IMG/VR virus record: IMGVR_UViG_3300028388_004132
Location: 1-23,765 of that record
From: a virus
Direction: 5' to 3' (one strand)
Length of the DNA: 23,765 nucleotides
Position 1 is the stretch's first letter; the number at the start of each line of letters is the position of its first letter. Under the pieces are notes generated by a model. It was given only the letters and a program-made list of their open reading frames with translations. It ran no database searches and was not told the origin of the DNA. This document shows, piece by piece, positions 668-19,209 of the stretch. A program made the translations under genes and the position numbers.

Positions 668-931
668 ATGGCCGATAAACTTAAACCATGCCCTTTTTGT
701 GGTAGTACAAATGTACGGTCTGTTGTCAAGGATTATCTTGGATACGTCAAATGTATGGATTGCAGGGGGCAGGGTGGTCATTGGCAATGGCATTCTACAA
801 CAGTGTGTGCAGATAACCAAGATGCGTTTGGTGAGTTTCGGTCAGCGTTCATTGCATCGTGGAATAATCGGCCTGAAATTTTAGAGGCTTATACACAAAG
901 GAAACTGGCGAACAGTTTCCTAGTGATATAG
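668..931 (+). CDS. Lar-like zinc-ribbon protein (restriction alleviation family)
   Basis: The 87-aa protein has the layout of the Lar family: CPFCGS near the N-terminus (C8, C11), a second pair in CMDC (C29, C32), and a final SWNNRP motif (about residues 64-69) matching the family's AWNRR ending. The two cysteine pairs should bind one zinc ion. Lar of the Rac prophage modulates type I restriction-modification; most phage homologues are untested. ATG 668 is preferred over an in-frame TTG at 653 because the ribosome binding site GAAAGGA lies between them. After the family's usual end (about residue 70) the protein runs on for ~17 unconvincing residues while a better-looking frame opens at -1, so the 3' end may be frameshifted. 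Confidence 0.75.
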   Translation: MADKLKPCPFCGSTNVRSVVKDYLGYVKCMDCRGQGGHWQWHSTTVCADNQDAFGEFRSAFIASWNNRPEILEAYTQRKLANSFLVI

Positions 932-1155: not shown

Positions 1156-2103
1156 ATGCCACTGCCTAAATTGATAATACTGTATGGAAAGTTTGGCCAT
1201 AATCATAACGAAAAACAGCAGCGTATGATTGATGGCGATACTGTGTGTGGTTACCGTGATTACGCCAAAAGGTTTGGAGAAATCATATATCTGTGCCCAC
1301 AACACGTACACCACGAATGGGAACACAGCATCCCTAATACTGAGGCACTAACGGAATACCTTGGTGCCCAAGAAAATGCAATCGTGTGGTCAGTCAAACA
1401 CGACCAGAGCAAGGATGTAATACTTAGATCAATAACGCACATACCCACACTCTACTACTCATGCTGTGCATACAATGTATGTAATCCATACGTTGACGTG
1501 TCGTTGGTTGATACTCCTGGCAGACTAAATTGCGGGGCTAATTGCAAACAATGGTTTAAGGGGAAAGACCCAACATTCTGGCGACATCGCGGTGAGGAAC
1601 GCATATACGATTACTGCTTATGCGGTCGGAGAGGAGATAAGCACGAAATAGACTTTATCAAGCAGCTTACAGAAGACTGCAAAGAGAAAAGAAAAGTCGT
1701 TTGGATCGGTGGCATAGCGCACAACAAAACATGGGGAAAAACACACCACGATGTTGTATGCACCCCACCTGCAAACCCAAGACGTGTAAGGGATCTAATG
1801 TGTTCCAGCAAGGTAGGCATTCTTTTGACCGATCTTCCGGCAGAAGGGTTTCCGCAAACACTTATTGAGATGGCTATGTGTGGGCTCCCGGTGGTTTACA
1901 ATGAGAAGGGCCCAACTAACACACTATACAAAGAGCGTGGAATTACTACAGAATCGGTAAGCTTGTCTGACTCGGCGCACGTTGCCGAACGTCTGCTATG
2001 CGGGACACCAAGGCCTATTAACAATGAAATTGCTGAAAACGCGCAATATGAGTTAAGCATTGCCAAATCATATCAACACATGGTAGATTTATGCACACAA
2101 TAA
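1156..2103 (+). CDS. Glycosyltransferase, GT-B fold (GT4-like)
   Basis: Predicted 315-aa sugar transferase that would move a sugar from a nucleotide donor to a growing glycan in the cytoplasm. The C-terminal half carries the GT4-type donor-site motif EGFPQTLIEMAMCGLPVV (residues 230-247), with the paired glutamates E230 and E238 in E-x7-E spacing. A Rossmann-like strand (KVVWIGGIAH, about 180-189) opens that domain. The N-terminal half is divergent and cysteine-rich. ATG 1156 is preferred to the GTG at 1099 because ACGGAGA sits just upstream and the extra 19 residues are low-complexity and basic. It is the first gene of the glycan cassette and overlaps the next by 13 nt. Donor and acceptor cannot be inferred. 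Confidence 0.8.
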   Translation: MPLPKLIILYGKFGHNHNEKQQRMIDGDTVCGYRDYAKRFGEIIYLCPQHVHHEWEHSIPNTEALTEYLGAQENAIVWSVKHDQSKDVILRSITHIPTLYYSCCAYNVCNPYVDVSLVDTPGRLNCGANCKQWFKGKDPTFWRHRGEERIYDYCLCGRRGDKHEIDFIKQLTEDCKEKRKVVWIGGIAHNKTWGKTHHDVVCTPPANPRRVRDLMCSSKVGILLTDLPAEGFPQTLIEMAMCGLPVVYNEKGPTNTLYKERGITTESVSLSDSAHVAERLLCGTPRPINNEIAENAQYELSIAKSYQHMVDLCTQ

Positions 2104-2798
2104 TAACTATGGTAGATCAGCGATATTTTCCTTATGGCGGACTACTCGATACATTGTGTAATGTTAATCATGACAACCTTCGCATATACACACCAGACCC
2201 AATGTTTGTGTATCTTAACACCCCGAAGGATATCGGGCACAATTCAATTGCTGCGATAGATGCTGAGTATTGGGAGGTGTATGGGCAGTCAATAAAACTT
2301 ATGGCTCTTTCCAGGACGCAAGGGAATGCAACATACCTCGACTGGGACACATACATAAATAATGATTTTACGCATGTGTTTGACATTATCGATGGGCTGT
2401 GTGTGACTACTACCAATAGCACGAAGCCGTGGGCTACTGTCAATGGTGGGGTAATATTTTCCAAAAATGGACATGAATTGGCAAGCGATTTGTTTGATCT
2501 TGTGCGTGGACTACATTCCCCAGAGAGCGACACATTGTTACAACATTTTTACGACAACATTTGGGACCATTTAGACGCGCACAGGAACAAAAAGGGAGGT
2601 GTTTATCACAGGCAAGACCTATCATGGTGGTGTGACCAGGTTGCATTGTGTGCTTGTAACACAGTTGGCATGTGCAGCAGGCTCCCGTGCTGCGAGTACA
2701 ACAAACTGAACGCACACCCAGACGACAAAGATCAGGACTTTTTTATAGGACACATGAAACAGCGTAGCGGAGCCCCATCTGAATGGAAGGACGGTTAG
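2091..2798 (+). CDS. Glycosyltransferase-like protein, GT-A fold
   Basis: The 235-aa protein looks like a small GT-A nucleotide-diphospho-sugar transferase. It begins with a hydrophobic first strand (HTIITMVDQRYFPYGG) and has a DWD metal-binding motif at residues 84-86 (TYLDWDTYIN). The segment NGGVIFSK (118-125) resembles the acceptor/donor region of GT8-type and related enzymes, followed by WWCDQVAL (about 198-205), typical of a D/E-Q element near the active site. ATG 2091 lies inside the end of the preceding gene; ATG 2109 is an alternative start but would clip the first strand. It ends exactly where the next gene begins. The family assignment is tentative and the specificity unknown. Confidence 0.65.
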   Translation: MHTIITMVDQRYFPYGGLLDTLCNVNHDNLRIYTPDPMFVYLNTPKDIGHNSIAAIDAEYWEVYGQSIKLMALSRTQGNATYLDWDTYINNDFTHVFDIIDGLCVTTTNSTKPWATVNGGVIFSKNGHELASDLFDLVRGLHSPESDTLLQHFYDNIWDHLDAHRNKKGGVYHRQDLSWWCDQVALCACNTVGMCSRLPCCEYNKLNAHPDDKDQDFFIGHMKQRSGAPSEWKDG

Positions 2799-3524
2799 AT
2801 GCACTTTGACATAACAACAACAGCCACCCCTCGGCCGGAGATTCACGATAGGTGCTATTCGTCCTTTGTTCGGCGTCTAAGGGGTGTTGATTGGGGTGCG
2901 TGTAGGCACTTCGTAAATATTGACCCATTTCCGCATGATGTGGTGCCACGCGAGCAACAGGAAACGGCAATACTCGAGAGTATAGAAGTGAGTAAGCGGT
3001 ATTTCGGACATACAATATCTAATGTTGCAACCGAGGGCAATTATTCTGAGGCATACAACTGGGTGTGGTCCAATGCCGAAAGTGAGATAATACTAAATCT
3101 TGAAGACGACTGGGAATTAAAAGACAAAATATGGATAGATGACTTGATGATGCTTATGCATAGCACTACCAACATGTTGCAAGTTATACTGCGTGCATAC
3201 AATTATGAGTACGCACAGCACATTACCTCACCTTGTCTTATGCATCGTAATTTGTACAAAGCAATTGGCGGCAAGCTAATGCGCACGATAAATCCTGAAA
3301 CACAGATACATGCCCAAAGTCATGCAAAAAGATTTGGTCTTAAATACCCATACAAGGTACCAGGCAAAAGCAAGCCATGGCTCGATTATCTTGCTGTATG
3401 GCCGGATCGTGTAGTGCTTAAGGACATAGGAAGAGAATGGATGGACAGGCAGGGTTTTTGCCGTCCACAACAACAGGGCGGAAAGAAGTGTTATTTTACA
3501 GCCTGGGAGAAAAAAAGAAAGTGA
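2799..3524 (+). CDS. Glycosyltransferase-like protein, GT-A/GT2-type
   Basis: The 241-aa protein contains LEDDWEL at residues 101-107, preceded by EIILN. This is the strand plus acidic metal-binding motif of GT2-type GT-A enzymes, in which the aspartates hold the metal and nucleotide-sugar. The preceding segment (about 78-92, EGNYSEAYNWVW) resembles the helix that carries the GT2 'N-x-G-x-a-x-a' element. Just over half of the protein follows the motif and would form the acceptor side. The start directly abuts the previous stop codon (TAG then ATG), implying coupled translation. Substrate unknown. Confidence 0.65.
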   Translation: MHFDITTTATPRPEIHDRCYSSFVRRLRGVDWGACRHFVNIDPFPHDVVPREQQETAILESIEVSKRYFGHTISNVATEGNYSEAYNWVWSNAESEIILNLEDDWELKDKIWIDDLMMLMHSTTNMLQVILRAYNYEYAQHITSPCLMHRNLYKAIGGKLMRTINPETQIHAQSHAKRFGLKYPYKVPGKSKPWLDYLAVWPDRVVLKDIGREWMDRQGFCRPQQQGGKKCYFTAWEKKRK

Positions 3525-3537
3525 AAAGGGTTGACAC

Positions 3538-4338
3538 ATGAAAATAGATGTACAAACATACGTGCAAGGGACAAACGGTGTAGAGTATGCCGAATATCTT
3601 GGGAGAACACTACGCAAGTACCAGAGTGGTAAGCATAATATAACCCTAAAGGCATTCCGTGGGATTAACACAGATTGCCCTGACGGGTGGAGTAGTAGTG
3701 GTACATTTGCCGTTACGACAACACAGTCAAGCCTTCAGCATGGATACGCCTTGATGGAGTGTATGAGCAAGTTCGACACTGATGCTGAAATCGCGGTTAT
3801 AATAGACGCAGATACTGCCGTGCTATATCCTGGTTGGGATGACGTTGTTTCAAATGAGTGCAATGATAGCAACCAAGTGTGGGGTTGGGAGTTTCCCAAC
3901 GAAATGAGACGCGGTGCTCGAGGGTATCCAGGGATATTCTTTCTGTCAATCCATAGATCAGCAGGTCTTAACTGGAATTTTGTGCCAGTGTTAGACGACC
4001 GTGGTGAGCGATGCGTAAAACACATTTTCAAAAAAACCGAGAACCGTTGTCTTTATGGGCGTAACTCTGTTAAGTGCGATACTGGTTGGATGATTGGGCT
4101 CACATGCAAAGAGCATAGATATAGTGCCCGGGCACTGCCATTTGTGCCACGAGATAGCGATATGGCCATGTTGTCTAATATGCCATTTGAAAAGCACCAT
4201 AGGCTACACCAAGGAGAGTGGCATTATCAGGGTAGGTTATTTGGGACACACAAGCAGGCGGCGCGATCGCATCCAATAAACGGAAAATACGGGAAACAGT
4301 GGACAGATAGGATTGAGGTGTATGAAAGTACCATTTGA
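3538..4338 (+). CDS. Glycosyltransferase-like protein, GT-A fold
   Basis: The 266-aa protein begins with a beta-strand (MKIDVQTYVQG) and has a helix plus strand leading to AVIIDADTAVLYPGW (about 86-100), where DAD at 90-92 fits a GT-A metal-binding DxD. A later stretch, EMRRGARGYPGIFFLSIHR, is typical of the region where these enzymes close over the acceptor. The ribosome binding site is AAAAGGG before ATG 3538, after a 13-nt gap, the largest spacing inside the cassette. The gene overlaps the following methyltransferase by 17 nt. I cannot give a CAZy family with confidence. Confidence 0.6.
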   Translation: MKIDVQTYVQGTNGVEYAEYLGRTLRKYQSGKHNITLKAFRGINTDCPDGWSSSGTFAVTTTQSSLQHGYALMECMSKFDTDAEIAVIIDADTAVLYPGWDDVVSNECNDSNQVWGWEFPNEMRRGARGYPGIFFLSIHRSAGLNWNFVPVLDDRGERCVKHIFKKTENRCLYGRNSVKCDTGWMIGLTCKEHRYSARALPFVPRDSDMAMLSNMPFEKHHRLHQGEWHYQGRLFGTHKQAARSHPINGKYGKQWTDRIEVYESTI

Positions 4339-4861
4339 AAAAAACGCGCATTCTGATGTAATACATGTAATCGCCAAAGGGTTGTCTAAGTGTGGAAAGC
4401 TTAGAACATACCTGGAACTAGGCATAGCAAAGGGCGCGACATTCAAAAAGGTTGCTCCGTTGTCCGAAGTATCTATTGGCGTTGATACATCAGAGGAATC
4501 GTGCGCAATAGCGTCACTGTATGGGCGCAGCTTTGAAGGGACTACAGATAAGTTTTTTGCAGATAGACCATTTGGTGACACGAGATTCGACTTAATATTT
4601 ATAGACGCTTGCCACCAAAGTGATCAAGTGCGAAAAGATTTGGAATCTTCTTTGGGTGTGTTGGCCAAGGGCGGCATAGTAATAATGCACGACACCCACC
4701 CACACAACGAATCACAATTACCACATTGCCAAGGGGCTTGGGAGGTTGTGCGGGATTGCAAAAACGAAAACCGTAAAATAGAAATATGTACGCTTCCGAT
4801 ATACAGCGGCATAACAGTAATACGCAACATTCCCGCAGGCAACCAAGTCGATTGGATGTAA
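4322..4861 (+). CDS. Class I SAM-dependent methyltransferase (Methyltransf_24-like)
   Basis: The 179-aa protein has the Rossmann methyltransferase signature: LELGIAKG (residues 31-38) as the glycine-rich SAM loop, an acidic residue ending strand 2 in GVDTSEE (D54), and LIFIDACHQSDQVRKDL (91-107), followed by GGIVIMHDTHP (117-127). The ID-x-x-H and HD pairs are typical of the Methyltransf_24 and cephalosporin-hydroxylase-like families, which often methylate sugars in surface glycan loci. ATG 4322 is chosen over a TTG nine bases earlier because GAGG lies directly upstream. Placed among glycosyltransferases, it most likely O-methylates a sugar. The exact acceptor is unknown. Confidence 0.8.
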   Translation: MKVPFEKNAHSDVIHVIAKGLSKCGKLRTYLELGIAKGATFKKVAPLSEVSIGVDTSEESCAIASLYGRSFEGTTDKFFADRPFGDTRFDLIFIDACHQSDQVRKDLESSLGVLAKGGIVIMHDTHPHNESQLPHCQGAWEVVRDCKNENRKIEICTLPIYSGITVIRNIPAGNQVDWM

Positions 4862-5992
4862 ATGATGAACCTTTTTGTTGATTGCGGAGCCTATACTGGT
4901 GACTCAATTGCCAAATGGATGGCAACCCATAAGCATGGGTATGATTACGTGTGTTTTGAGCCAAACCGTACAAGTGCCAAAATAATTAGACACGCATTTC
5001 CATCAGTAAAGGTAATAGAAGCATGTGCCTGGCGCAACTATGGCGAGCACAGGCTGTACCCAACAGCACACGCAAACGGCGGGACGGTTGTCGGGAAAAA
5101 AAAACGTGGCGTAGATTCTTACATGGTAAACACAGTTGATCTTGGCGACTGGCTCGATGGGCAGCGTAAAGAGTATAAGAAAATTGTTGTAAAGCTCAAT
5201 GTAGAAGGCGCAGAGTATGACATCCTACGGTCCATGCAGGCCCATGATCAGATAAGGCTTGTGGATGAGTGGTATATCAATTGGCACGCCAACAAGATGA
5301 CAAGGGCACCCAAGGACCACGCAGAAATACGTGACATGATGAAGTGTTGGCCGGAATGGGACAACGCACATTCGCCTGTTGGAATTTACACCGCAATAAT
5401 TGGTGATGGGCCGTACTGTTTGCGCGAAGATTTTAAGCGGGAACATCATATTGATTACATATGCTATACCGACCGCCAAGACATCAAGAGTGATGTATGG
5501 GAAATTCGCAGGATTAAAAAACAGAAACACCCAATACTAAAGTCGAGAGAAATAAAAATATTGTGTCACAGGTGGATGCCTGGATATGAATACTCTGTGT
5601 GGATGGATACACGCTTCGTGCCATTCTATAAGCACCAAATATGGATCAACCACCAAAAGGCAAGCGATGCGCCGTTAGTGGTGATGGACCATAACAAAAG
5701 AAGGTGCGCATTGGAGGATCTGCGTGTACTTGGGCTTAAGAGTTCACGGCAATATAATCTATACAAGAAAGATCTCCCTGAGAAGTTTGGGCTCTGGGCT
5801 CCAGGAATTATGGTCAGAAGGCACGATGACGCGAGGCTTGCCGAGGCTATGGAGTTCTGGTATAACGAGATTGTTGAGGAGGAGACAGTGCGTGACCAAC
5901 CAGCATTGGCGTATACGTTGTATAAGACCGGTGTGCCGTATCGATCTATAAATTTTCGGAAATGTTACGACAAATGGATAGGTAGATCATGA
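4862..5992 (+). CDS. FkbM-type methyltransferase fused to a DUF616 (TOD1/MUCI70-like) glycosyltransferase domain
   Basis: The 376-aa protein reads as two domains. Residues ~1-170 are an FkbM-family methyltransferase: VDCGAYTGDS (6-15) is the SAM loop, CFEPN (31-35) the acidic second strand, and VKLNVEGAEYDIL (110-122) the family's hallmark (usually K-x-D-x-E-G-x-E; here N replaces the first D). Residues ~173-376 match DUF616: YTAIIGDGPY (176-185), DYICYTD (198-204), then KSREIKILCHRW and YSVWMDTRF (244-252), where plant TOD1/MUCI70 proteins have the WiDg element. It would both methylate and glycosylate. The start directly follows the preceding TAA; ATG 4865 is equally possible. The fusion is unusual as far as I know. 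Confidence 0.8.
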   Translation: MMNLFVDCGAYTGDSIAKWMATHKHGYDYVCFEPNRTSAKIIRHAFPSVKVIEACAWRNYGEHRLYPTAHANGGTVVGKKKRGVDSYMVNTVDLGDWLDGQRKEYKKIVVKLNVEGAEYDILRSMQAHDQIRLVDEWYINWHANKMTRAPKDHAEIRDMMKCWPEWDNAHSPVGIYTAIIGDGPYCLREDFKREHHIDYICYTDRQDIKSDVWEIRRIKKQKHPILKSREIKILCHRWMPGYEYSVWMDTRFVPFYKHQIWINHQKASDAPLVVMDHNKRRCALEDLRVLGLKSSRQYNLYKKDLPEKFGLWAPGIMVRRHDDARLAEAMEFWYNEIVEEETVRDQPALAYTLYKTGVPYRSINFRKCYDKWIGRS

Positions 5993-6450
5993 GCTTCGCA
6001 GAGTTTCGACGAGGCGTAAGGCTTGTTGGTAACCACATCGATGTGGTTGGTTGGGATAGTATTTATTGCCAATACAATCCTGATTGGATGCACACTTGGA
6101 ATGTTTTGGCTGGTGGGTCTTGGATGATCAAAGACTCGCCACACGTTAAGGCGTTGAGATCGTGGTTCCACGACGAAGGCAGTGTGCAGCCGTATGTTGA
6201 CATGCAAGTTGCATATACGCATTCTATGGAGCGGGCAAAGGCACGATTGTCAGAGCTTTTCGCGTTGTTTGAGGACATCGAAAAAAACGGATTGAAAAGT
6301 ACGCCGGTGGTATTGTCCATGCCGTTGTGTAAGACGAAGGTAAAAGGCCAAAAGGATTATTTTGAAATATGGGAAGGGCATCACAGATTGGCATGCATGT
6401 ATGTTTTAGGAATGGATGCAAATGTGGAGGTGTGTAAGTGGACTTTATAG
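5989..6450 (+). CDS. ParB/sulfiredoxin-fold-like protein in the glycan cassette
   Basis: The 153-aa protein ends with EIWEGHHRLACMYVLGM (126-142), matching the G-H/N-R-x-x-A segment of ParB-type N-terminal domains, which bind nucleotide and phosphate. The preceding PVVLSMPL and the closing VEVCKW would be the flanking strands. The first 100 residues are helical and not recognisable. There is no DNA-binding helix-turn-helix, so a role in partition is unlikely. In this fold some members are NTPases or kinases, and several phage and surface-glycan loci carry such proteins with unknown roles. ATG 5989 overlaps the preceding stop in the ATGA arrangement; the end overlaps the next start by 13 nt. 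Confidence 0.6.
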   Translation: MSFAEFRRGVRLVGNHIDVVGWDSIYCQYNPDWMHTWNVLAGGSWMIKDSPHVKALRSWFHDEGSVQPYVDMQVAYTHSMERAKARLSELFALFEDIEKNGLKSTPVVLSMPLCKTKVKGQKDYFEIWEGHHRLACMYVLGMDANVEVCKWTL

Positions 6451-7079
6451 CAACGTGGGTAGGACGTGAGATGCTGCGTCCGGCGATGGTTGTTGGAGCC
6501 GGGGCAACACTGCGTGACTATGGCGATGCCGTGGTAGGGATGGCACATAAATACGCGACATTTGGTATTAACAATATGACTCACATACTAACACCTGACT
6601 ATCACATTTGGACAAACGCCAAAAGGTTTGACACGTTTAGCGACAGTATCAAGAAAGAGTCACTTCTAGTAATTGGTGTTCAGGAGCACCATGTAAGACA
6701 GAAGGCTATAGCTTTACAGTACGATGCCGAAGTGCTACAGTACAAAGACCAGGGCGGGTTACCATATTCATACGATAGTGAAGGCATATACGGGCACTTC
6801 AGGACGTGCGGATGTCTGTCGATATACCTGGCATACATAATTGGGTGCTCACCGATACATGTGGTCGGTATGGATGGGTATACGCTTAATTATTGTGGTA
6901 ATCAGCATTGCTATGGCTCGGGGCATACTGATAGTAATGATGCCAGATACGAGGGCCGAAAGGATGACGAAATTTTAGAGGTCTTAAACAAATTGAAAGC
7001 GCACGGAGTTAATTTTAAAATCATTACACCTACTGTATACGAAGCGCATTATGACGGGAGTGTGTTGGATGTATCCTGA
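6438..7079 (+). CDS. DUF115/MptE-like Rossmann protein, possible ulosonic-acid transferase
   Basis: The 213-aa protein has the plan of the DUF115/MptE-like superfamily, which includes Maf flagellin glycosyltransferases and resembles GT42 sialyltransferases. It has VVGAGATLRDY (18-28) as the first glycine-rich loop, FGINN (42-46), PDYHIWTN (53-60), and later GCLSIYLAYIIGCSPIHVVGMDGY (125-148), the A-x-x-x-G-x-x-P-I-x-x-V-G-x-D element. Maf and GT42 proteins use CMP-activated nonulosonic acids, and the next gene encodes a CMP-sugar synthetase, so the two may be functionally paired (inference). The GTG start at 6438 overlaps the preceding gene by 13 nt. Confidence 0.6.
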   Translation: MDFIATWVGREMLRPAMVVGAGATLRDYGDAVVGMAHKYATFGINNMTHILTPDYHIWTNAKRFDTFSDSIKKESLLVIGVQEHHVRQKAIALQYDAEVLQYKDQGGLPYSYDSEGIYGHFRTCGCLSIYLAYIIGCSPIHVVGMDGYTLNYCGNQHCYGSGHTDSNDARYEGRKDDEILEVLNKLKAHGVNFKIITPTVYEAHYDGSVLDVS

Positions 7080-7791
7080 TGTTCTGGCTATTATACCGTG
7101 TCGCGTAGGAAGTACAAGATTCCCAAACAAGGGGATGGCAAAAGTCGGCGGTGAAGAAATGGTGTGGAAGGTGCATAGAGTTGCAAACCGGCTCGTAACA
7201 TCGTTTATTGCTACTGATCAACCCGAGCAAATATGCCGTACACAAGACGATACGAAATACATATGGCATGTTGACGGTGATATAAAGACAGGCCACGACA
7301 GGGTCGCATCAGCCGTAAATATGCGTATACACGGATCAAGGCAAATTATTAATCTGCAGGGTGATGAGCCCATGTTGCGTTGCGATGACTTAAAAAAACT
7401 TATAGAGTATCCAATTGAAAAAGGTGAGTGCGTGGGCGTAATGGCCATTGATGACTGTGTGACGCGACAGCACATGCCGTACTGTGTTGTCGATAACGAC
7501 AGCAGGCTACTATATATGTCACGCAATCCAGTCCCGGGTGTTATGGCTGGCACAGACCCCATATATTACCGGCAGGTAGGAATGTTCAAATGGCACTCTG
7601 AAGACTTGGTAAGGCTGTACGGGAATGGGGCACGCAAAAGTGAGATTGAAAGTGTTGAAGACATATGCCTTTTGCGAGCGCTGAGTAGCATGCGTGTAAA
7701 AATGATTGAGGTGGCGCATGGCACACACCCGGTGGATACGCCAGATGACATAAACATTGTGGAGGGGCTGCTTGAGTCTAAGAGGGGCTAA
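7069..7791 (+). CDS. kdsB: 3-deoxy-manno-octulosonate cytidylyltransferase homologue (KdsB-like)
   Basis: The 240-aa protein closely follows KdsB, which activates Kdo with CTP to give CMP-Kdo and pyrophosphate for LPS or capsule synthesis. It has IIPCRVGSTRFPNKGMAKVGG near the N-terminus (8-28), the nucleotide-binding signature R-x-x-S-T-R-x-P-x-K. It also has NLQGDEP (95-101) and VDTPDDI (222-228), whose aspartates hold the metal in KdsB. Length is normal (family about 245-250). One family position, the H-I-G of the substrate loop, reads Q-V-G here (about 169-171). ATG 7069 is preferred over ATG 7051 because GGGAG lies upstream; it overlaps the preceding gene by 11 nt. A different ulosonic acid as substrate is possible. 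Confidence 0.85.
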   Translation: MYPDVLAIIPCRVGSTRFPNKGMAKVGGEEMVWKVHRVANRLVTSFIATDQPEQICRTQDDTKYIWHVDGDIKTGHDRVASAVNMRIHGSRQIINLQGDEPMLRCDDLKKLIEYPIEKGECVGVMAIDDCVTRQHMPYCVVDNDSRLLYMSRNPVPGVMAGTDPIYYRQVGMFKWHSEDLVRLYGNGARKSEIESVEDICLLRALSSMRVKMIEVAHGTHPVDTPDDINIVEGLLESKRG

Positions 7792-8029
7792 TATCAAGCG
7801 CACTGTTTGTGAGGTGCTGCGTGAGATATACGACATAGCACAGAGTGATAGTGCTGAGGATGTTGCGATACGGCGCAAACTCGTTGAGGCAGAAAAGATG
7901 TGCAAAAAAATGGCAAAAGCTCTATACCGGTACAACAAAGACTTTGATGCCAATTGGTGGTTAAACAATCCCAATTATGACAAAGCCATTAAAAGAGATC
8001 TGAACCGTAGATATATACCAGATGCATGA
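7772..8029 (+). CDS. Small helical hypothetical protein, 85 aa
   Basis: I do not recognise this protein. It is charged, probably all-helical, with no membrane segment, and ends in an aromatic, basic tail (NWWLNNPNYDKAIKRDLNRR). The TTG at 7772 is the best start: GGAGGGG lies just ahead of it, while the TTG at 7757 has no ribosome binding site. It begins 20 nt inside the kdsB-like gene and overlaps the sulfotransferase gene by 8 nt, so translation is probably coupled to both. It may be an adaptor or regulatory subunit of one of them, which is inference from position only. Confidence 0.65.
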   Translation: MSLRGANIKRTVCEVLREIYDIAQSDSAEDVAIRRKLVEAEKMCKKMAKALYRYNKDFDANWWLNNPNYDKAIKRDLNRRYIPDA

Positions 8030-8660
8030 AATCAATCCAACAATTGACCCTATCCTTATCATGGGGTTTGAGCGGAGCGGGACCACTTTGCTTCGCCGGT
8101 TGATTAGCATGTGTCCTGCACTTAGGTATGATCTGTTGCACGAACAGTGGAGGCTGCAAACTTACGCCACGGCATCGGAAGCTATTAACAACTACCGCAT
8201 GCCGTGCAGACAGGCTGGGAAACTAACCGGCGGCAATGCAAGTATTGAGTCCGGGGAAAAGATAGCGTACTATGACAACTGGATGCGTGCGATTGCATAT
8301 TACAACAAATGGCGATGTTTTTGGCCACACGCTAAGGTGCTGCACATAATAAGAGATCCTAACGATGTTGCGAGGTCATGCTATAATACGTTCGAGCGTG
8401 ATATAAAACTCACAGAAAGAGCTTGGGAAGAGTCTGTATCAACAATACTGAATACTACATTCGACGACAAGAATTGTATTGTTGTATCATACGAGTGGTT
8501 AATAGAAAATCAAACAGACGCGCTTAGGTCTTTGTACAATATTATATGTGGTATGGAGTATGAGAGCCCCATATTACATGCAATAATGGAGACGCAAGAA
8601 CCATGGAATTACAATGGACGAGTCATGTGTGGCCTGAGATACAAGGCAGAAGTACAGTAG
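8022..8660 (+). CDS. PAPS-dependent sulfotransferase
   Basis: The 212-aa protein carries both cofactor motifs of sulfotransferases. GFERSGTTLLRRL (15-27) is the 5'-phosphosulfate loop, and HIIRDPNDVARSCYN (108-122) is the 3'-phosphate-binding strand and helix with the conserved R and S. It would transfer sulfate from PAPS to a hydroxyl, here most likely on a sugar. It is compact for the family (usually 250-300 aa), but both motifs are complete and the C-terminal helices are present. ATG 8022 lies in the end of the preceding gene; the 3' end overlaps the next gene by 58 nt. No APS kinase or sulfate-activation gene is visible, so PAPS would have to come from the host. Confidence 0.8.
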   Translation: MHEINPTIDPILIMGFERSGTTLLRRLISMCPALRYDLLHEQWRLQTYATASEAINNYRMPCRQAGKLTGGNASIESGEKIAYYDNWMRAIAYYNKWRCFWPHAKVLHIIRDPNDVARSCYNTFERDIKLTERAWEESVSTILNTTFDDKNCIVVSYEWLIENQTDALRSLYNIICGMEYESPILHAIMETQEPWNYNGRVMCGLRYKAEVQ

Positions 8661-9475
8661 CAATATATTTGCGTGGCTGGTGGGATGAGCGGACAGAGGA
8701 GAGTATTGAAAACGACGACGATATGTGGTTGCAATTGTTCGATGCTATACATCCAGGGCATATAGTTTTTTGGGATTACCCATATGGTTACGAGATAAAT
8801 TATCGTGACAGTAAAATATGTGGCCCGTCTGAACTGGGAAGCTGCGACTTGCTGTTCTGTCGTGGTGGGTTTGATTATTATTCCGAGTTTATAAACCAAA
8901 GACCAAGTGCAAGAAAAATCTATTATGGTGCTGGGCGCAGGTGGAAGCCAACAGACACATCGACAAATTACGATGTCATATTGTGCGATAGCGCAAAGCA
9001 GGCGGCAGAATTGAGAAACATGTATCCTTCCTCCGAGGTATCTGTGTGGGCAAAGCCTGCAGCAGAATGCGTCACGCCGGTTCAATGCGATAAGAAATAT
9101 GATATATGCTATATCGCAAACTGGCAGCAACGGTCAATAAAGGGTATCGATTGGGTGTACGATAGTTGCCCACGTGATTTGCGCATATTACACCTTGGCA
9201 GAGGTGAGCCACTGAGAAAATTGGCAAACGTGGAACAGCTTTGTTCGGCGCGCAAAGATATACACAAACACATATCAAAGTGTATCACTGGAGTTGCCCC
9301 ATATTGGTCTGGCGTTGATAGCGCTCCAAGGTCAATATGTGAGATGCGTGCATGTGGGTTGCCAGTTGTTTGCGCGGATACTGTAGCAGCAGACATGCTC
9401 GGTGTCAAATACGCAACTCCTAAATCATTTTGGCGGAAAGTGCGCGATATTATTGTGGAAAAGGGCGTGATGTGA
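8603..9475 (+). CDS. Glycosyltransferase, GT-B fold (GT1/GT4-like)
   Basis: The 290-aa protein has the GT-B C-terminal donor-site motif DSAPRSICEMRACGLPVV (239-256), followed by CADT. This is the counterpart of the GT4 E-x7-E region, but the first glutamate is replaced (D239 or S240), while E247 is kept. The segment KYDICYIANWQQRSIKGI (165-182) would open the second Rossmann domain. ATG 8603 gives a 58-nt overlap with the sulfotransferase gene; a GTG at 8627 is an alternative start that would still keep the first strand TVAIYLRG. Substrate unknown. Confidence 0.7.
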   Translation: MELQWTSHVWPEIQGRSTVAIYLRGWWDERTEESIENDDDMWLQLFDAIHPGHIVFWDYPYGYEINYRDSKICGPSELGSCDLLFCRGGFDYYSEFINQRPSARKIYYGAGRRWKPTDTSTNYDVILCDSAKQAAELRNMYPSSEVSVWAKPAAECVTPVQCDKKYDICYIANWQQRSIKGIDWVYDSCPRDLRILHLGRGEPLRKLANVEQLCSARKDIHKHISKCITGVAPYWSGVDSAPRSICEMRACGLPVVCADTVAADMLGVKYATPKSFWRKVRDIIVEKGVM

Positions 9476-10224
9476 AGCATTTATACGTGCAACCGTTTGT
9501 TGGTGAGTTTGGGTGGGAGGTGTGCCGATGGCAGTGCCTCGTACGCTCTGTTGCTAGTAGGTACGACACCACTACAGTGTGTTGCGAGGACGGGCACGAG
9601 TGGTTGTATTGGGATTTTGCGGAAGAAATCGAAACGATAAATGTTAGGCCACGTAAGCGTAATATGTACACTAGCGAGTTGGGTCTGTTGGAGTATTACG
9701 GTTCTGGCAATAGACTGATGCCATCCAAAGAGCTTTGTCTATGCAAACAAGATGTTGTATGGTATAGGTACAGGTCTCATGATCCGATAGCATCAAATAC
9801 GATACTGATTCACAACCGCACGACGAAAAATTACTCCACTGAAGAACGCAACTGGCCAAATCATAAGTGGGATGCGCTTGCATATGCTCTAAAGGATTTT
9901 AGAATAATTACGGTTGGTAGTTTAGGTGGGGCAGGAAGGGTGCGTGGCTGCGAAGATATGCGCGGTGTTGGGCTTGATAGGCTCTCAGTGTTATGCTCAG
10001 AGGCAAAATGTATTGTTGGGCCTAGTAGCGGTCCGATGCACTATGCGAGTATGTGTGAGTGTCCGCAAGTGGTTTGGTCAGAAAACAAAACCGAGGTAAT
10101 TGGGTGCACAAATGAAGTGCGATACAAAACAGCTTGGAATCCATTTGGAACACCGGTAGAGTATTTACCAACATGGCAACCTGAAGTAGTAGATGTGGTT
10201 ACTGCCGTAAGGAGATTTTTGTGA
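9472..10224 (+). CDS. Glycosyltransferase family 9-like protein (heptosyltransferase-type)
   Basis: The 250-aa protein shows IVGPSSGPMHYASM (181-194), which corresponds to the GT9 segment in which a Gly/Ser/Thr-rich loop and the P-M-H helix bind the ADP-heptose donor. A second hallmark, NWPNHKWDALAYAL (127-140), resembles the 'k-x-W-p-x-e-x-w-x-x-L' start of the donor domain. The N-terminal domain is shorter than in bacterial heptosyltransferases (about 340 aa). GTG 9472 is preferred over the TTG at 9430, because GGAAAAGG precedes it and it overlaps the previous stop as GTGA. Donor sugar uncertain. Confidence 0.75.
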   Translation: MKHLYVQPFVGEFGWEVCRWQCLVRSVASRYDTTTVCCEDGHEWLYWDFAEEIETINVRPRKRNMYTSELGLLEYYGSGNRLMPSKELCLCKQDVVWYRYRSHDPIASNTILIHNRTTKNYSTEERNWPNHKWDALAYALKDFRIITVGSLGGAGRVRGCEDMRGVGLDRLSVLCSEAKCIVGPSSGPMHYASMCECPQVVWSENKTEVIGCTNEVRYKTAWNPFGTPVEYLPTWQPEVVDVVTAVRRFL

Positions 10225-10931
10225 TTTATCTACCGATTGCAATGACAACCTATAACAGAGCTAAATATACAAAGGCTACTATTTCTTCTCTTGAGCAATC
10301 AAATGCCGACATGTCAGCTCTACATATACATGATGACGGCAGTACTGATGCCGATGCTATTGATTTGTTAAGCAAATACGACAAAACATATTATGTGCAT
10401 AGGCATGTTAACAGGGGGTCGTATCAAGCTGTATATGAGGCGCTGGACGATGTTTTTAGGAGGTACGTGACAAGGTGGGTATGTTACATACAAAACGATG
10501 TTGAGGTGTCTAAGAATTGGTTGCGGAATGGAATGGCGCTGGCATATCATTGTAACACAGCGAGTGATTGCAAATTAGGAATATTTTCTTTATACAATCG
10601 CAAGGAGGACAAGGCACGTGAAAAATGGTATACTATTACTGAGGGAGGGCATCCAGGTGGGGTGTGTTGGCTCGTAAACCGTCAATGGTGGACAGATTAC
10701 AAAAAAGAGGTTAACGAAGACATGGATGGTATGCGTTGGTTGCCAACAAATGATAGGCGTAGTGATCATTACCGGCGACACATTGTTGACTACAAAATGT
10801 GTGACGCTTGCAAAAGAATGGGGTGGGTTGTGGGGGCTGTCGGCAGGTCGCTAGTACAGCATGTAGGTGACAAATCCAGCATTGGAGACAAGGACATGAC
10901 ATTTTGCAGGGTGAAAAATTACGTTGGCTGA
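10221..10931 (+). CDS. Glycosyltransferase family 2 protein
   Basis: The 236-aa protein is a typical short GT2 enzyme. The first strand is YLPIAMTTYNRAKYTKATISSL (3-24), the second HIHDDGSTD (35-43) with the nucleotide-binding D-D-G-S-T-D, and CYIQNDVEV (88-96) supplies the metal-binding acidic motif. A GGHPGGVCWLVNRQWW stretch in the middle of the protein fits the acceptor loop of the family. GTG 10221 overlaps the previous stop as GTGA. It is the last gene of the glycan cassette and overlaps the minor head gene by 8 nt, which directly links this cassette to the structural genes. Substrate unknown. Confidence 0.85.
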   Translation: MIYLPIAMTTYNRAKYTKATISSLEQSNADMSALHIHDDGSTDADAIDLLSKYDKTYYVHRHVNRGSYQAVYEALDDVFRRYVTRWVCYIQNDVEVSKNWLRNGMALAYHCNTASDCKLGIFSLYNRKEDKAREKWYTITEGGHPGGVCWLVNRQWWTDYKKEVNEDMDGMRWLPTNDRRSDHYRRHIVDYKMCDACKRMGWVVGAVGRSLVQHVGDKSSIGDKDMTFCRVKNYVG

Positions 10932-11856
10932 ATTAAATACAGACGTTGACCAGCAAATAAAAGAGATCGAAGATGATCTTATAAGAGCGCAACAGCTTGA
11001 TTTGAAATTCAAGGGTGATAGAAACGCGGTGTGGACTGTGGCAAATGCTGCGGCCACCCGCCCGTCCTACTACACAAATTCGCAAAAGCTTGATAAGCTC
11101 ATTGGTAAAGTAAGAGGTATTCTAAATCGGGAGATCGCCAAGGCTGGGTCTCATGGCAGAATCATGGGCCGTAATGCAATAAACAGGTTTCTCGACGATT
11201 CGGAGCGGCGCACAAGGATGGACAGGTTGCGAAATATTGCAAAACGTAGCTCGGCAAAACGGGCTGGATTGCGGGTAGATGCCGCACTAACGCAACTTAA
11301 CAAAGAGGCCGGTATACTAAAGGCTGACATTGATGTGTTTAAGGCAAACGCACGTGCTGCAGGATTTACCAACAAGGAAATACTCGATCAGTTAATACAG
11401 GTCGGTGGAAGCAAGGCTGGGCCTATGCAGGCATTTGCCAAGCGGGCAAATGCTGTTGCTAGAGACGCGGCCAGGCGTGCGCGATCACAAGAGCAGATTG
11501 GAGTGTTGCGCCAGGACTTCCCGCGCCCGAACGACATGTGGCAATGGATTACGGTTAGCACAAAGCCGTGCCCTGACTGTAGCCTGCGTGCAGGCAAGGT
11601 GCTATCTTGGGCTGAGTGGGAGCAGATTGGCACACCTGGTAGTGGCCACACTGTTTGCGGCAGCGCGTGCAAATGCCTGCTTCAGCCGATAGAGATTGCG
11701 GAGAGGCGTTTTCCGACAGTTAAAGAATTTCGTTTTGATCCTGAGCGTGGGGTTTTGACTACAGCTAGCGAAGCGCGCAAATTAAACAAAAAGACTGCAC
11801 AGCCACCGCAAAACAAAGGAAAAAATGGTGATAAAACTACAAGCAAAAGGAGTTGA
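10924..11856 (+). CDS. Phage minor head / head morphogenesis protein (Mu gpF-like)
   Basis: The 310-aa protein ends in the cysteine-rich signature of Mu gpF-like head morphogenesis proteins: CPDCSLRAGKV (216-226), then GSGHTVCGSACKC (239-251), a likely zinc site near the capsid portal vertex. The ~200 residues before it are charged and helical. The tail after 290 is lysine-rich and low in complexity. The only reasonable start is TTG 10924; the next in-frame ATG (11163) would remove 80 residues. It overlaps the end of the GT2 gene by 8 nt. The role, by analogy, is assembly or completion of the head around the portal. The portal itself is not in the window. Confidence 0.75.
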   Translation: MAELNTDVDQQIKEIEDDLIRAQQLDLKFKGDRNAVWTVANAAATRPSYYTNSQKLDKLIGKVRGILNREIAKAGSHGRIMGRNAINRFLDDSERRTRMDRLRNIAKRSSAKRAGLRVDAALTQLNKEAGILKADIDVFKANARAAGFTNKEILDQLIQVGGSKAGPMQAFAKRANAVARDAARRARSQEQIGVLRQDFPRPNDMWQWITVSTKPCPDCSLRAGKVLSWAEWEQIGTPGSGHTVCGSACKCLLQPIEIAERRFPTVKEFRFDPERGVLTTASEARKLNKKTAQPPQNKGKNGDKTTSKRS

Positions 11857-11858
11857 AT

Positions 11859-12053
11859 ATGCTTAAGTCAGGATACAACAAAATAGACGGCACGCCATTT
11901 GGGATAAAAAGAGAACTTGAGCGTGTGACAAACGAAGCTATTAAAAAAGCACAAAAAAACGGTAAAAAGGTAAAAAAAACAACATCGAAGCCAGTAAAAC
12001 GGTCTTATACTCGTTCGCGAAATACATCAACTGTTGACAATTACAAAAAATAA
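11859..12053 (+). CDS. Small basic hypothetical protein, 64 aa
   Basis: The protein is rich in Lys and Arg, especially in its second half, and shows no domain. ATG 11859 follows AAAGGAG (11846-11852) with good spacing; a TTG six bases earlier is not needed. It begins 2 nt after the minor head gene. A basic tail like this could bind nucleic acid or an acidic partner in the head, but nothing in the sequence is specific. Small basic proteins are common next to head genes. Confidence 0.65.
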   Translation: MLKSGYNKIDGTPFGIKRELERVTNEAIKKAQKNGKKVKKTTSKPVKRSYTRSRNTSTVDNYKK

Positions 12054-12077
12054 ACGTATAATTACGTGTGGGCTTAT

Positions 12078-12245
12078 ATGCACAGTGCAAGACCAAAATC
12101 CGATGATCCCAAAAGGGACGCACTTTTGCGCCATCATGCAAAATCTCTTGAGAGGATGCATGCAAGATTTACCGGCAAGGTCACTCAGCACTGGAAAGAC
12201 GGCAAGATAGAGGTCGTTGAACTAAATTACAAGGTTCACGACTGA
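12078..12245 (+). CDS. Small hypothetical protein, 55 aa
   Basis: A clean frame from ATG 12078 to TGA 12243-12245 encodes 55 residues with normal composition: a basic helical first half and a strand-like second half, HWKDGKIEVVELNYKV. It is short enough to be passed over by simple length cut-offs. There is no strong ribosome binding site; GTG 12066 is an alternative start in the same frame. It fills most of the space between the small basic gene (ends 12053) and the terminator at 12301. Function unknown. Confidence 0.55.
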   Translation: MHSARPKSDDPKRDALLRHHAKSLERMHARFTGKVTQHWKDGKIEVVELNYKVHD

Positions 12246-12300: not shown

Positions 12301-12349
12301 AAGGCCATGGGTAATCCAGATTTTGGATTATTCGTGGCCTTTTTTTTTA
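12301..12349 (+). terminator. Rho-independent terminator ahead of the capsid block
   Basis: AAGGCCA (12301-12307) pairs with TGGCCTT (12335-12341). The inner arms GTAATCCA and TGGATTAT lengthen the stem with G-U pairs allowed, and a run of nine T (about 12340-12348) follows. The strand with the T-run is the + strand, so it would stop transcription coming from the glycan and minor head genes. An in-frame ATG inside the stem (12307) is not used as a start. Confidence 0.8.
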
Positions 12350-12396: not shown

Positions 12397-13122
12397 ATGC
12401 CAGTGCCAGCGGGTGTACACGACAAGCTTAAGGATGCCCTAAAGGGTATTACGTTGACAATTGACGGTGAGGAGATTGAGGCCTACGAGGCCATCCTGGG
12501 GGAAAATGGATGGCTACTTAAATCAGAGGCGGCAAGCAAAATTCAGCAAGCCAATAAGGAAATTTCCGACGAGCGCATGCTTTCAGATGACGACAAAAAA
12601 AGGTTTGATGAATTTAAGGCGAACGGCGGAAGGACTCAGGACGTGGAAGCTGAAATAAACAAGTACAAGGACGATTTGAGTACTCTTACCGAAAAGGTCC
12701 AAAATCTCACCAAGTCAGTAGAGTCTGAGCGTGCCGCTGCACTCGCGGCAAAAAGAAATGAACTCAATATGGCGCTTGACTCCGACATTCTTGGGTCACT
12801 ACAAGAAGCTAATATTGTTGGAAAAAACGCTAAAATTGCGTTGAATCTTATTAAGTCCGAGGGACTGGCAAAGTATTCTGATCCTGATGACCAAGGGAAC
12901 GTGTCACGGGCTTTCGCCGTTGTAAAGGACGGCAAAATGCTAAAGGCGGAAAGCCTCGCAGATGTTGCGAATCACGTTGCTACAGAGTATGAAAATCTGG
13001 TGTCATCGTCTAATCAGCGTGGGTCGGGAATGGACCACGGTGGTAATGGGGGCGGAAATCAGGTAGACTACAACAACATGAACACGCAGCAGATGCGGGA
13101 TAGTTTCGCCATCAGCGAATAA
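12397..13122 (+). CDS. Probable capsid scaffolding protein
   Basis: The 241-aa protein is acidic and helical with a strong coiled-coil tendency in the middle (about residues 60-125), charged at both ends, and sits immediately upstream of the major capsid gene. This is the usual place and build of a siphovirus scaffold, which directs procapsid assembly and then leaves. The C-terminal ~50 residues include a Gly/Asn-rich linker (GMDHGGNGGGNQ) and a short final helix that could contact the capsid protein. ATG 12397 has GAGGGAG upstream; the in-frame ATG at 12307 falls in the terminator stem and is rejected. No protease motif is visible. Confidence 0.75.
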   Translation: MPVPAGVHDKLKDALKGITLTIDGEEIEAYEAILGENGWLLKSEAASKIQQANKEISDERMLSDDDKKRFDEFKANGGRTQDVEAEINKYKDDLSTLTEKVQNLTKSVESERAAALAAKRNELNMALDSDILGSLQEANIVGKNAKIALNLIKSEGLAKYSDPDDQGNVSRAFAVVKDGKMLKAESLADVANHVATEYENLVSSSNQRGSGMDHGGNGGGNQVDYNNMNTQQMRDSFAISE

Positions 13123-13145: not shown

Positions 13146-14084
13146 ATGCCTACTGGTGCAAATACACTACTCGAAACTGCCAAAACAATGGACATAGGGC
13201 ACTCACGTTCTGTTGTTGGGACTTATGCTTCGGCATATCACCCGATGACTGCAATGCCCATTCTGCCAGCACCTTCCGGGGTGCATAACTGGAATACAGA
13301 AGATCAACTGCCATACAATAGCGGCGGAACTCGTGCTTTCAATGGGTCATGGACATCAACACGTTCTGTTGTAAGCTCTTTCACAGAGTCAATCAAAATC
13401 TATGGTGGCGAAGTCCAGATTGACCGAATGATGGCCAAAATTAACCCGCAGAAGGTTCCACAGGAACGTGCTGCGCAGGTTCGGGCATCTGCACGCCAAT
13501 GGACAATTGATTTCATCAAGGGCGGTGGTGGAACGCAGCTGCGTGGTATCGAGGATTGGCTGAACAACGAAACGTTGTTTGCAAATCAGACATTTAATGT
13601 TGGCTCTGCCTCTGCTGGAAGCGCTTTAATGACGGACCATCTTGACAGGCTACTTAGCCTTGTGAACATTGTTCCAGGAATGACATACATTTACTGTAGC
13701 GACCAGATTGGTCTGCGCATTCAGAAACTGTCGCGAGGCAATAGCGCGACAAACGACACCGCATATGCAACCAGATTCAGCCCTGACCAGTGGGGATATT
13801 TTTCTGGTATGTATAACAACGTGCCGGTAGTTGTGCTTAAGGACGGCAAGGGTACTGACCTTATTGACACTGATGATGGTGATGGTGAGAGTTCGTCAGT
13901 CTACTGTGTGACTTATGGCACCGAGATGCTGGCAGGATTCCAGGTTGGCCCTATGGAGGTGCATACACTCAATCAGGCCGACGTTTACAACTACTTCGAC
14001 TTCGAATGGGGCGTTGGTCTTGCTCCGCAGGCAGTGCGCAGTATTGCGCGTTTGCGCTACGTTGCCGAGACTGTTGGCACCTAA
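13146..14084 (+). CDS. Major capsid protein
   Basis: The 312-aa protein lies after the scaffold and has the shape of an HK97-fold capsid subunit. It has an N-terminal arm, a long basic helix region (VPQERAAQVRASARQWTIDF, about 104-123), a stretch near GTQLRGIEDWL, and a C-terminal P-domain/A-domain end, VGPMEVHTL and WGVGLAPQAVRSIARLRYV, with the common 'R-x-x-V-A-R-L' type finish. Start ATG 13146 has AAAGGAG (about 13131-13137). Codon use is even and the composition is close to its neighbours. This is by far the best candidate for the main shell protein of the virion. Confidence 0.85.
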   Translation: MPTGANTLLETAKTMDIGHSRSVVGTYASAYHPMTAMPILPAPSGVHNWNTEDQLPYNSGGTRAFNGSWTSTRSVVSSFTESIKIYGGEVQIDRMMAKINPQKVPQERAAQVRASARQWTIDFIKGGGGTQLRGIEDWLNNETLFANQTFNVGSASAGSALMTDHLDRLLSLVNIVPGMTYIYCSDQIGLRIQKLSRGNSATNDTAYATRFSPDQWGYFSGMYNNVPVVVLKDGKGTDLIDTDDGDGESSSVYCVTYGTEMLAGFQVGPMEVHTLNQADVYNYFDFEWGVGLAPQAVRSIARLRYVAETVGT

Positions 14085-14477: not shown

Positions 14478-14626
14478 GGAAGTACCATGGGAAAAAGGTG
14501 GACGAAAGCCGTGAGGCATTTCTTGCTTGGCAGCGTTCGCACACTCCCAGCCATGTTGCAAAGCTGCAGGAAAAAGTAAGCTCGGAAATGATTGCCAAAA
14601 GAGAAGCAGTTAATAATCTAACATAG
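14426..14626 (+). CDS. Possible 3' part of the frameshifted head gene
   Basis: GTG 14426 gives 66 residues in the frame that opens at 14375, but no good ribosome binding site precedes it, and the frame already reads as protein upstream of the GTG. The encoded part is helical and basic, with a run such as EAFLAWQRSHTPSHVAKLQE. The simplest reading is that this is the continuation of the gene at 14106 after a one-base loss, or a -1 frameshift product. A separate overlapping gene is less likely. Confidence 0.4.
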   Translation: MVKRVDAGSATHNRQQLRKYHGKKVDESREAFLAWQRSHTPSHVAKLQEKVSSEMIAKREAVNNLT

Positions 14627-14638
14627 GAGTTATGCTTT

Positions 14639-15058
14639 ATGGCATGGCAGACACAGTCAGAAATATGGGGCAGCGATCAATCAATCTCGGTTTGCTCTTC
14701 TGCGTCCGCAACTACTAGCTCTACACTCGGGACTGCATCAGATGTGGGCCGGGGAGTTTATGTGGCAGACCTTACCGTTACAAGTATTAGTACCGGTACT
14801 GGGTTTGACGTGATTAACCTGATTTTCCAGGCTAACACGTCTGCTGCTACATCGACATATGTAGAGATCGCAAATGTATGTATGGGTGATGCAACAGGAC
14901 GTGGCGCAGCCCTCACATCTCTTAGTAACGCGCAGGTGTTGATGGCGAACGATGGTGATAATGATATCAGGCTTTACGCTTATCTTCTGGGGTCCGCCTC
15001 AGCAATAAGCGGGGTCACGTGTTATCTTCGTCCGCTTTCGTCGAGCATTGGTGCGTAA
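14639..15058 (+). CDS. Probable capsid decoration protein
   Basis: The 139-aa protein is beta-rich, serine- and threonine-rich and lacks charged runs: SDQSISVCSSASATT, then GVYVADLTVTSI and FDVINLIFQANTSAATSTYVEIA. This pattern resembles Bbp16-like and other siphovirus decoration proteins found just after the major capsid gene. The C-terminal half (LMANDGDNDIRLYAYLLG) continues the same sheet. It is the last gene before a strong terminator. A ribosome binding site AGGAG (about 14625-14629) precedes ATG 14639. Family assignment is by composition and position, not by a diagnostic motif. Confidence 0.6.
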   Translation: MAWQTQSEIWGSDQSISVCSSASATTSSTLGTASDVGRGVYVADLTVTSISTGTGFDVINLIFQANTSAATSTYVEIANVCMGDATGRGAALTSLSNAQVLMANDGDNDIRLYAYLLGSASAISGVTCYLRPLSSSIGA

Positions 15059-15094
15059 TCGACATTCCTGGTTACGATCAGGGACATCCGATGG

Positions 15095-15138
15095 CAAGGA
15101 CTCCCAACCCTTTCGGGGGCTGGGAGTCCTGTTGTTTT
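15095..15138 (+). terminator. Rho-independent terminator after the capsid block
   Basis: A perfect 10-bp stem, AGGACTCCCA (15097-15106) with TGGGAGTCCT (15121-15130), can be extended inward by pairing of ACCC with GGGG around a TTTC-type loop. GTTGTTTT follows. It fits termination of the scaffold/capsid/decoration transcript and, with the terminator at 12301, isolates this block. Confidence 0.8.
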
Positions 15139-15150
15139 ATGGAGGAATAA

Positions 15151-15417
15151 ATGAGTATTGCATTTCCAGGTATAATTGAGATGCGCCAAATCGACCCGGG
15201 AACGTCCTTTGACTCTCCAAATAACGGGTCAGCACGAACCGGAAAGTGCTTTGTTATCGGCACTGATGGTAATTTGGATATTACATGGGCAAGTGGCAGG
15301 ACTGAGGTTATCCCGAGCGGTACGTTTACAACAGGAGTACAATATTGGTGTGAGTTTAAATCAATAAATTCACCGCGGACAACGGCATCTAATATTATCG
15401 TAGGTTTTGATTCGTAA
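15151..15417 (+). CDS. Small structural-looking protein, 88 aa
   Basis: The protein is beta-rich and polar with several G/T/S turns (SFDSPNNGSARTGKCF, then DGNLDITWASGRTEVIPSGTF), similar in style to phage head or tail-tip proteins, but it has no recognisable motif. GGAGG (15141-15145) lies just ahead of ATG 15151. It is the first gene after the terminator at 15138 and is followed, after 13 nt, by the membrane protein gene. Function unknown. Confidence 0.55.
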   Translation: MSIAFPGIIEMRQIDPGTSFDSPNNGSARTGKCFVIGTDGNLDITWASGRTEVIPSGTFTTGVQYWCEFKSINSPRTTASNIIVGFDS

Positions 15418-15430
15418 GGGGTTTTTAAGA

Positions 15431-19206: not shown

Positions 19207-19209
19207 ACA

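Follow-up and report, generated by a model that had tools for sequence, protein, structure and literature searches.

Phages are known to carry small sets of glycan-building genes close to the genes for the head. In the mycobacteriophage Corndog (cluster O), an O-methyltransferase and three glycosyltransferases lie between the portal and protease genes, and the authors proposed that they modify the capsid (PMC4351075). Glycans on the capsid and tail tube of mycobacteriophages have also been reported (Freeman 2023, as cited in PMC12619734). We analyzed a larger set, a 14-gene cassette at positions 1156-10931 of IMG/VR record IMGVR_UViG_3300028388_004132. The window comprises this entire record (23,765 bases), which is evidently a fragment of an uncultured tailed phage. 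A preliminary description of the window had considered the cassette rare in its breadth and the best candidate there for an undescribed system. The first judgment holds, and the cassette is real, conserved, located at a fixed site and unusually broad in its chemistries; the second is too strong, because the small form of such systems at the junction of portal and head genes was already known from Corndog. We estimate a probability of roughly two in three that the cassette, judged by its gene content and position, is a late-expressed phage module that glycosylates a virion protein in the cytoplasm.

The cassette resembles the Corndog set in combining a methyltransferase with several glycosyltransferases between the portal and the head maturation genes. 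This placement is seen in full in two relatives of the window (L096 and G002, see below), and the window itself shows the border with the gene for the MuF-like minor head protein. Corndog, compared here by its description, has four genes rather than about 14, and no cytidine monophosphate (CMP)-ulosonate synthetase, sulfotransferase, DUF115 or GT9 protein is reported there. Cellulophaga phages phi12:1, phi17:1, phi18:1 and phi18:2 (Helsingorvirus) have, close to MuF, a Methyltransf_24 gene and after it one for a TOD1/MUCI70-like transferase. In these phages, however, the set is limited to two genes located downstream of MuF (upstream here) with three small genes between, and a prohead protease and a PF05065 capsid protein are annotated, unlike in the window.

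Other described systems resemble the cassette in part. The chlorovirus PBCV-1 builds a methylated glycan on its major capsid protein with its own cytoplasmic enzymes (including A064R and A111/114R), independently of host organelles (PMC7826918). PBCV-1 is an unrelated giant virus of eukaryotes with an N-linked glycan, and only the mechanism is analogous. Maf (DUF115) flagellin glycosyltransferases act in the cytoplasm (PMC4065374) and transfer CMP-activated pseudaminic or legionaminic acid, N-acetylneuraminic acid or 3-deoxy-D-manno-octulosonic acid (Kdo) onto Ser/Thr (PMC11339370, PMC4065374); the Maf of Clostridium botulinum accepts CMP-Kdo (PMC11339370). In the cassette, a DUF115-like candidate (gene H) adjoins a CMP-ulosonate synthetase (gene I), but H has only a domain match below the curated cut-off, in a protein of 213 residues that lacks the large multi-domain architecture of Maf, and there is no flagellin. 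Cyanophage P-SSM2 carries a large polysaccharide gene set, 24 lipopolysaccharide (LPS) genes in two clusters, suggested to alter the host surface; a position between portal and MuF is not described there (PMC2984593).

Conservation and variation of glycan genes beside MuF

With the capsid and MuF proteins as anchors, scans of viral contigs yielded four further contigs representing three further lineages (G001; G002 and G003; L096). The closest, G001 (IMGVR_UViG_3300035698_013082), has a major capsid protein (MCP) 61% identical to that of the window and contains 13 of the 14 cassette genes (all but J) in identical order, at 31-47% identity, which bears out the synteny that the preliminary description had asked to be checked. 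The F homologue contains only the TOD1/MUCI70-type domain, without the FkbM domain. Additional genes in G001 comprise an HMGL-like aldolase (PF00682) between H and I, a GT4 gene upstream and several small open reading frames (ORFs). The structural proteins of the window and G001 are 28-66% identical; the divergence of the cassette is thus similar to that of the head and tail genes, which suggests long residence rather than recent acquisition. The I homologue of G001 (G001rc 10941-11678; L009) is interrupted by a frameshift, either genuine or an error of sequencing, and a low-complexity repeat with RSRSGSWS-type peptide runs lies close to the contig end (G001rc 128-367).

The near-identical contigs G002 and G003 (MCP 53% to the window) contain, in order, terminase, portal, a GT4 gene, three glycosyltransferase-type proteins assigned by motif (one of which matches PF03407), a PIG-L deacetylase, homologues of C, L, M and N, and MuF. 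In the more distant L096 (MCP 34%), terminase and portal are followed by a DUF6492 gene, a methyltransferase-like gene, others, and a gene for a 729-residue protein with GT11-, GT7- and N-type GT2 domains (L096:7618-9807), the end of which overlaps MuF. The three-in-one layout of this protein is comparable to that of PBCV-1 A111/114R. A second cluster of unusual enzymes in G002, between the replication genes and terminase (G002rc 14576-20066; L109), encodes a DXD-motif sugar transferase, a SET-domain protein, a radical SAM/SPASM protein, two related proteins without assigned function and an SPL-like radical SAM protein.

In each of the four lineages in which a clear MuF homologue was found (at least 31% identity), glycan genes thus lie immediately upstream of MuF, and portal lies immediately upstream of the glycan genes in G002 and L096. 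Gene N is the sole gene present in all four, each time adjoining MuF, and L-M-N are common to three. Only two small genes separate portal and MuF in L100, a distant relative with terminase- and portal-like genes (MuF 27%). The preliminary description had named cassette-free relatives with identical, unglycosylated virion proteins as a counterexample; L100 is cassette-free but too distant to count as one. Given the differing cassettes in the relatives and the absence of one in L100, the compared sequences identify the portal/MuF interval as a fixed site for variable glycan-building genes.

A single-sequence MCP scan of the viral contigs gave no match. A scan with an MCP alignment gave a single close relative together with 79 distant relatives of the MCP. 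Among these, cassette profiles matched only in L072 and L076, where an isolated methyltransferase gene lies upstream of that for the scaffold. Weaker relatives of E are present in these two contigs and in Cellulophaga phage phi18:2. Together, the Cellulophaga phages, L072/L076 and Corndog indicate that the portal-to-head junction is a recurrent place for glycan genes. Searches with the G002 portal and with MuF, H, L, M and N of the window (tblastn for H, L, M and N) gave no match in 50,697 phage records, where the capsid protein and the G002 terminase matched at 25-34% only. Scans of GTDB genomes with MuF and H gave no host-borne relative. KdsB matches in other large viral contigs (L089-L092) were accompanied by no further cassette match, and two fecal 'Bacteriophage sp.' records (L007, L008) were dropped as they resemble bacterial polysaccharide or housekeeping contigs.

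Gene complement and flanking features

The 14 ORFs run in succession on the + strand. As the preliminary description stated, each starts within or directly at the end of the previous gene, except for a 13-bp gap between C and D. Pfam searches gave a signal in nine of them (A, E, F, H, I, K, L, M and N) and assigned no family to B, C, D, G and J; B, C and D contain GT-A-like DxD/EDD motifs that are conserved in their homologues (Table 1). These matches substantiate the GT4-, GT2- and GT9-like enzymes noted before, in part below the gathering threshold (A, L, M), as well as the two methyltransferase domains, the sulfotransferase and the CMP-sugar synthetase. The earlier figure of six or seven glycosyltransferases is reasonable, and up to nine are plausible. 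The DUF115-like assignment of H is retained with a reservation: the two homologues score 22.6 and 23.7 bits against PF01973 (gathering threshold 34.6), and the match, near full-length over the profile, is the sole Pfam match in both.

Table 1. Cassette genes and flanking features of the window. Percentages are amino acid identities.
Feature	Positions	Strand	Assignment	Evidence
Lar-like	668-931		Lar-like restriction alleviation protein, just upstream of cassette	PF14354 2e-10
A	1156..2103	+	GT4-type glycosyltransferase	Pfam Glyco_trans_1_4 9e-5, below gathering; 47% to G001 homologue
B	2091..2798	+	Probable GT-A glycosyltransferase without family	DxD, NGGV, DQ motifs; 31% to G001
C	2799..3524	+	GT2-like glycosyltransferase	NLEDDW motif; 36% to G001; 23% to protein at G002rc 29988
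D	3538..4338	+	Probable GT-A glycosyltransferase	IDADTAVLYP; 31% to G001
E	4313..4861	+	Class I S-adenosylmethionine methyltransferase, Methyltransf_24	Pfam 1.9e-10; 36% to G001
F	4862..5992	+	FkbM methyltransferase fused to TOD1/MUCI70-type glycosyltransferase	Pfam FkbM 3e-7, TOD1/MUCI70 3e-5; NCBIfam fkbM 1e-12; PHROG 26101 3e-10
G	5989..6450	+	ParB/Srx-type GHHR protein	EGHHRLAC motif, kept in G001
H	6438..7079	+	DUF115/MptE-like, 213 residues	Pfam 1e-4; G001 homologue 5e-5; both below gathering
I	7051..7791	+	CMP-Kdo synthetase-like cytidylyltransferase	Pfam 9e-21
J	7757..8029	+	Small protein	No family; no G001 match
K	8022..8660	+	3'-Phosphoadenosine-5'-phosphosulfate (PAPS)-dependent sulfotransferase	RSGTTLLRRL and RDPNDVARS motifs; Pfam Sulfotransfer_3 2e-16; 39% to G001
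L	8603..9475	+	GT4-type glycosyltransferase	Pfam 1e-5, just below gathering; 40% to G001, 38% to G002
M	9472..10224	+	GT9, heptosyltransferase-like	GT9 1e-3, below gathering; 40% to G001, 37% to G002
N	10221..10931	+	GT2 glycosyltransferase	Pfam 3e-9; 35% to G001, 39% to G002, 28% to domain of L096 protein
MuF	10924..11856	+	MuF-like minor head protein	Pfam Phage_Mu_F 1e-4, below gathering; 44/41/35% to relatives
Promoter	12034-12062		Sigma-70 promoter ahead of 55-residue ORF	12/12 consensus
Small ORF	12078-12245		55 residues, between MuF and scaffold	Conserved
Terminator	12301-12341		Terminator after 55-residue ORF	19 pairs
Scaffold	12397..13122	+	Scaffold protein	Homologues in G001, G002, L096; start corrected from 12307
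MCP	13146..14084	+	Major capsid protein	PHROG 212 9e-23; 61/53/34% to G001/G002/L096
Lipase	16817-17545		Class 3 lipase, between neck and tail genes	PF01764 2e-11

KdsB accounts for 13 of the 14 PDB matches of I, including every strong one (best 2y6p, 5e-22), and I carries the KdsB motifs CRVGSTRFPNKG, QGDEP and HPVDTPDD. It scores below the NCBIfam equivalog cut-offs (69.3 bits vs 155.2 for TIGR00466; best subfamily 135.6 vs 255). The G001 homologue of M exceeds the gathering threshold for GT9 (7e-5). For M itself, a start at 9472 (a 4-base overlap with the end of L, ATGTGA region) is more likely than one at 9430. G is perhaps a small-molecule kinase, given a weak SerK match (0.003) far under the cut-off. 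PDB profile searches gave nothing meaningful for B, C, D and H, and a PDB search with K gave no match. AlphaFold models built from two-sequence alignments were unusable (mean pLDDT, the predicted local confidence score, 40 for H and 34 for B).

The end of N overlaps the start of MuF by 8 bp, and MuF is followed by genes for the scaffold, the major capsid protein, the neck (PHROG 26, 1e-17), the tail tube and the apparent start of the tape-measure protein. The coupling to head genes noted for this putative multi-sugar, methylated, sulfated glycan cassette is supported. The single + strand terminator-like site within the cassette, with 5 pairs, is not above chance. GGAG Shine-Dalgarno-like motifs upstream of several genes imply only that the host probably uses such motifs.

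The 55-residue ORF between MuF and the scaffold gene is also present in G002, and in G001, where it is accompanied by a similar promoter-like stretch and terminator-like hairpin; with its predicted promoter and terminator it looks like a small gene transcribed separately within the late operon. The class 3 lipase gene has no tblastn match in L009/G001.

A proposed role in virion glycosylation

The preliminary description had left the choice between the virion and the host surface open. The virion is now favored by the position of the cassette, its lack of membrane proteins and published precedent. No convincing transmembrane segment was detected in the cassette proteins of the window (19-residue hydropathy maxima 0.2-1.6), and no lipid-carrier initiator, flippase, polymerase or ligase is present among their Pfam matches. 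By family matches and hydropathy, the cassette also contains no GtrA/GtrB-type pair of membrane-bound flippase and polyprenyl-phosphate transferase, as expected of a set for Gtr-type serotype conversion or O-antigen modification. The N-MuF overlap is consistent with a single late transcript. Taken with the late position and the absence of membrane, lipid-carrier and export functions, it points to a cytoplasmic acceptor made at the same time, and we infer that this would be a virion protein.

In the pathway that we propose, the soluble glycosyltransferases would use host nucleotide sugars, supplemented by a CMP-ulosonate from I, and would build up an oligosaccharide on a virion protein, either ahead of head assembly or while it proceeds. 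H is a candidate CMP-ulosonate transferase; encoded beside I, it would probably transfer a CMP-activated Kdo-like sugar, and the adjacency of the two genes suggests that H and I may attach this sugar in a reaction like that of Maf. The glycan would be methylated by E and by the FkbM domain of F and sulfated by K, the methyl and sulfate groups capping or charging the chain. The conserved end of the set, beside MuF, consists of L, M and N, and N may make the first bond between sugar and protein or work on an obligatory core sugar. Because the remaining genes are swapped between lineages, the outer glycan would vary while the head genes stay constant. The likely benefit would be a particle hidden from recognition or altered in adhesion or stability.

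Several observations weigh against this proposal. Between L and M, G001 contains an extra small ORF whose product would have a hydrophobic segment. Portal lies beyond the ends of the window and of G001, so that the upstream border of the cassette is not covered there. The cassettes of G002/G003 and L096 differ from that of the window, and cassette content varies so widely that the acceptor may differ among lineages. H is about one third the size of a Maf protein, with its family match under the curated cut-off.

The cassette could instead remodel the surface (LPS or capsule) of the infected host, for instance as a block to superinfection. Enzymes like KdsB and GT9 typically belong to the LPS inner core, O-antigen loci often contain GT4 and GT2 enzymes, and P-SSM2 provides a phage precedent. 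The missing initiating transferase, flippase, polymerase, ligase and membrane protein argue against this explanation, and because GT9 and Kdo enzymes of the LPS core can be peripheral cytoplasmic proteins they weaken it only; the location within a head operon, at a site beside MuF fixed in four lineages, also counts against it, and we consider it unlikely. That the enzymes glycosylate hypermodified DNA bases against restriction appears quite improbable. Viral glycosyltransferases that decorate DNA with diverse glycans have been reported (Pyle 2024, as cited in PMC12619734), and a Lar-like restriction alleviation gene precedes the cassette. The portal-MuF interval is an unexpected place for DNA-modifying genes, however, and no base hydroxylase, hydroxymethylase, base kinase or cytosine methylase was recognized among the families of the window or, as judged solely by eye, in the G002 contig of 38 kb, both contigs being incomplete.

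The HMGL-like aldolase of G001, and the PIG-L deacetylase and separately located radical SAM/SPASM gene of G002, would suit a pathway to a free small molecule or glycoconjugate, packaged or secreted. The overlap with a head gene and the conservation beside MuF in four lineages are better suited to a component of the particle, and we give such a product very little weight. A chimera in which the assembly had fused phage genes to bacterial capsule genes, raised in the preliminary description, would account for enzyme types that are common in bacterial surface polysaccharide loci. It is refuted, to the point of being negligible, by glycan genes that abut MuF in four independent lineages, in one of which the gene order is repeated. 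Composition is uniform (43-49% GC over the cassette and head genes, with no step where they meet), and N and MuF overlap.

Virion glycosylation thus remains our preferred explanation, and it suggests that cassette-bearing phages cover their virions in a sugar that is complex and can change. To our knowledge, and in the literature searched, the size of the cassette, its combination of acid-sugar and sulfate chemistry and the lineage-wise exchange of its content at a fixed site are new, and we know of no previous report of a Kdo-type acid sugar or a sulfate ester on a phage virion. Bacterial phages could then possess large, interchangeable pathways that make complex glycans, acidic, methylated and sulfated, for their particles, with virion glycosylation to a degree otherwise linked with giant viruses. 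Such coats would bear on the escape of phages from recognition and neutralization, and the cassettes would be a source of soluble glycosyl-, methyl- and sulfotransferases working on a protein acceptor. More tentatively, and with less than even confidence, we suggest that the portal/MuF junction is a site of cassette exchange in a new family of tailed phages, giving lineage-specific virion glycotypes that include a sulfate ester and an acid sugar of the Kdo type. If present, such glycotypes would be comparable to the serotype switching of bacterial capsules.

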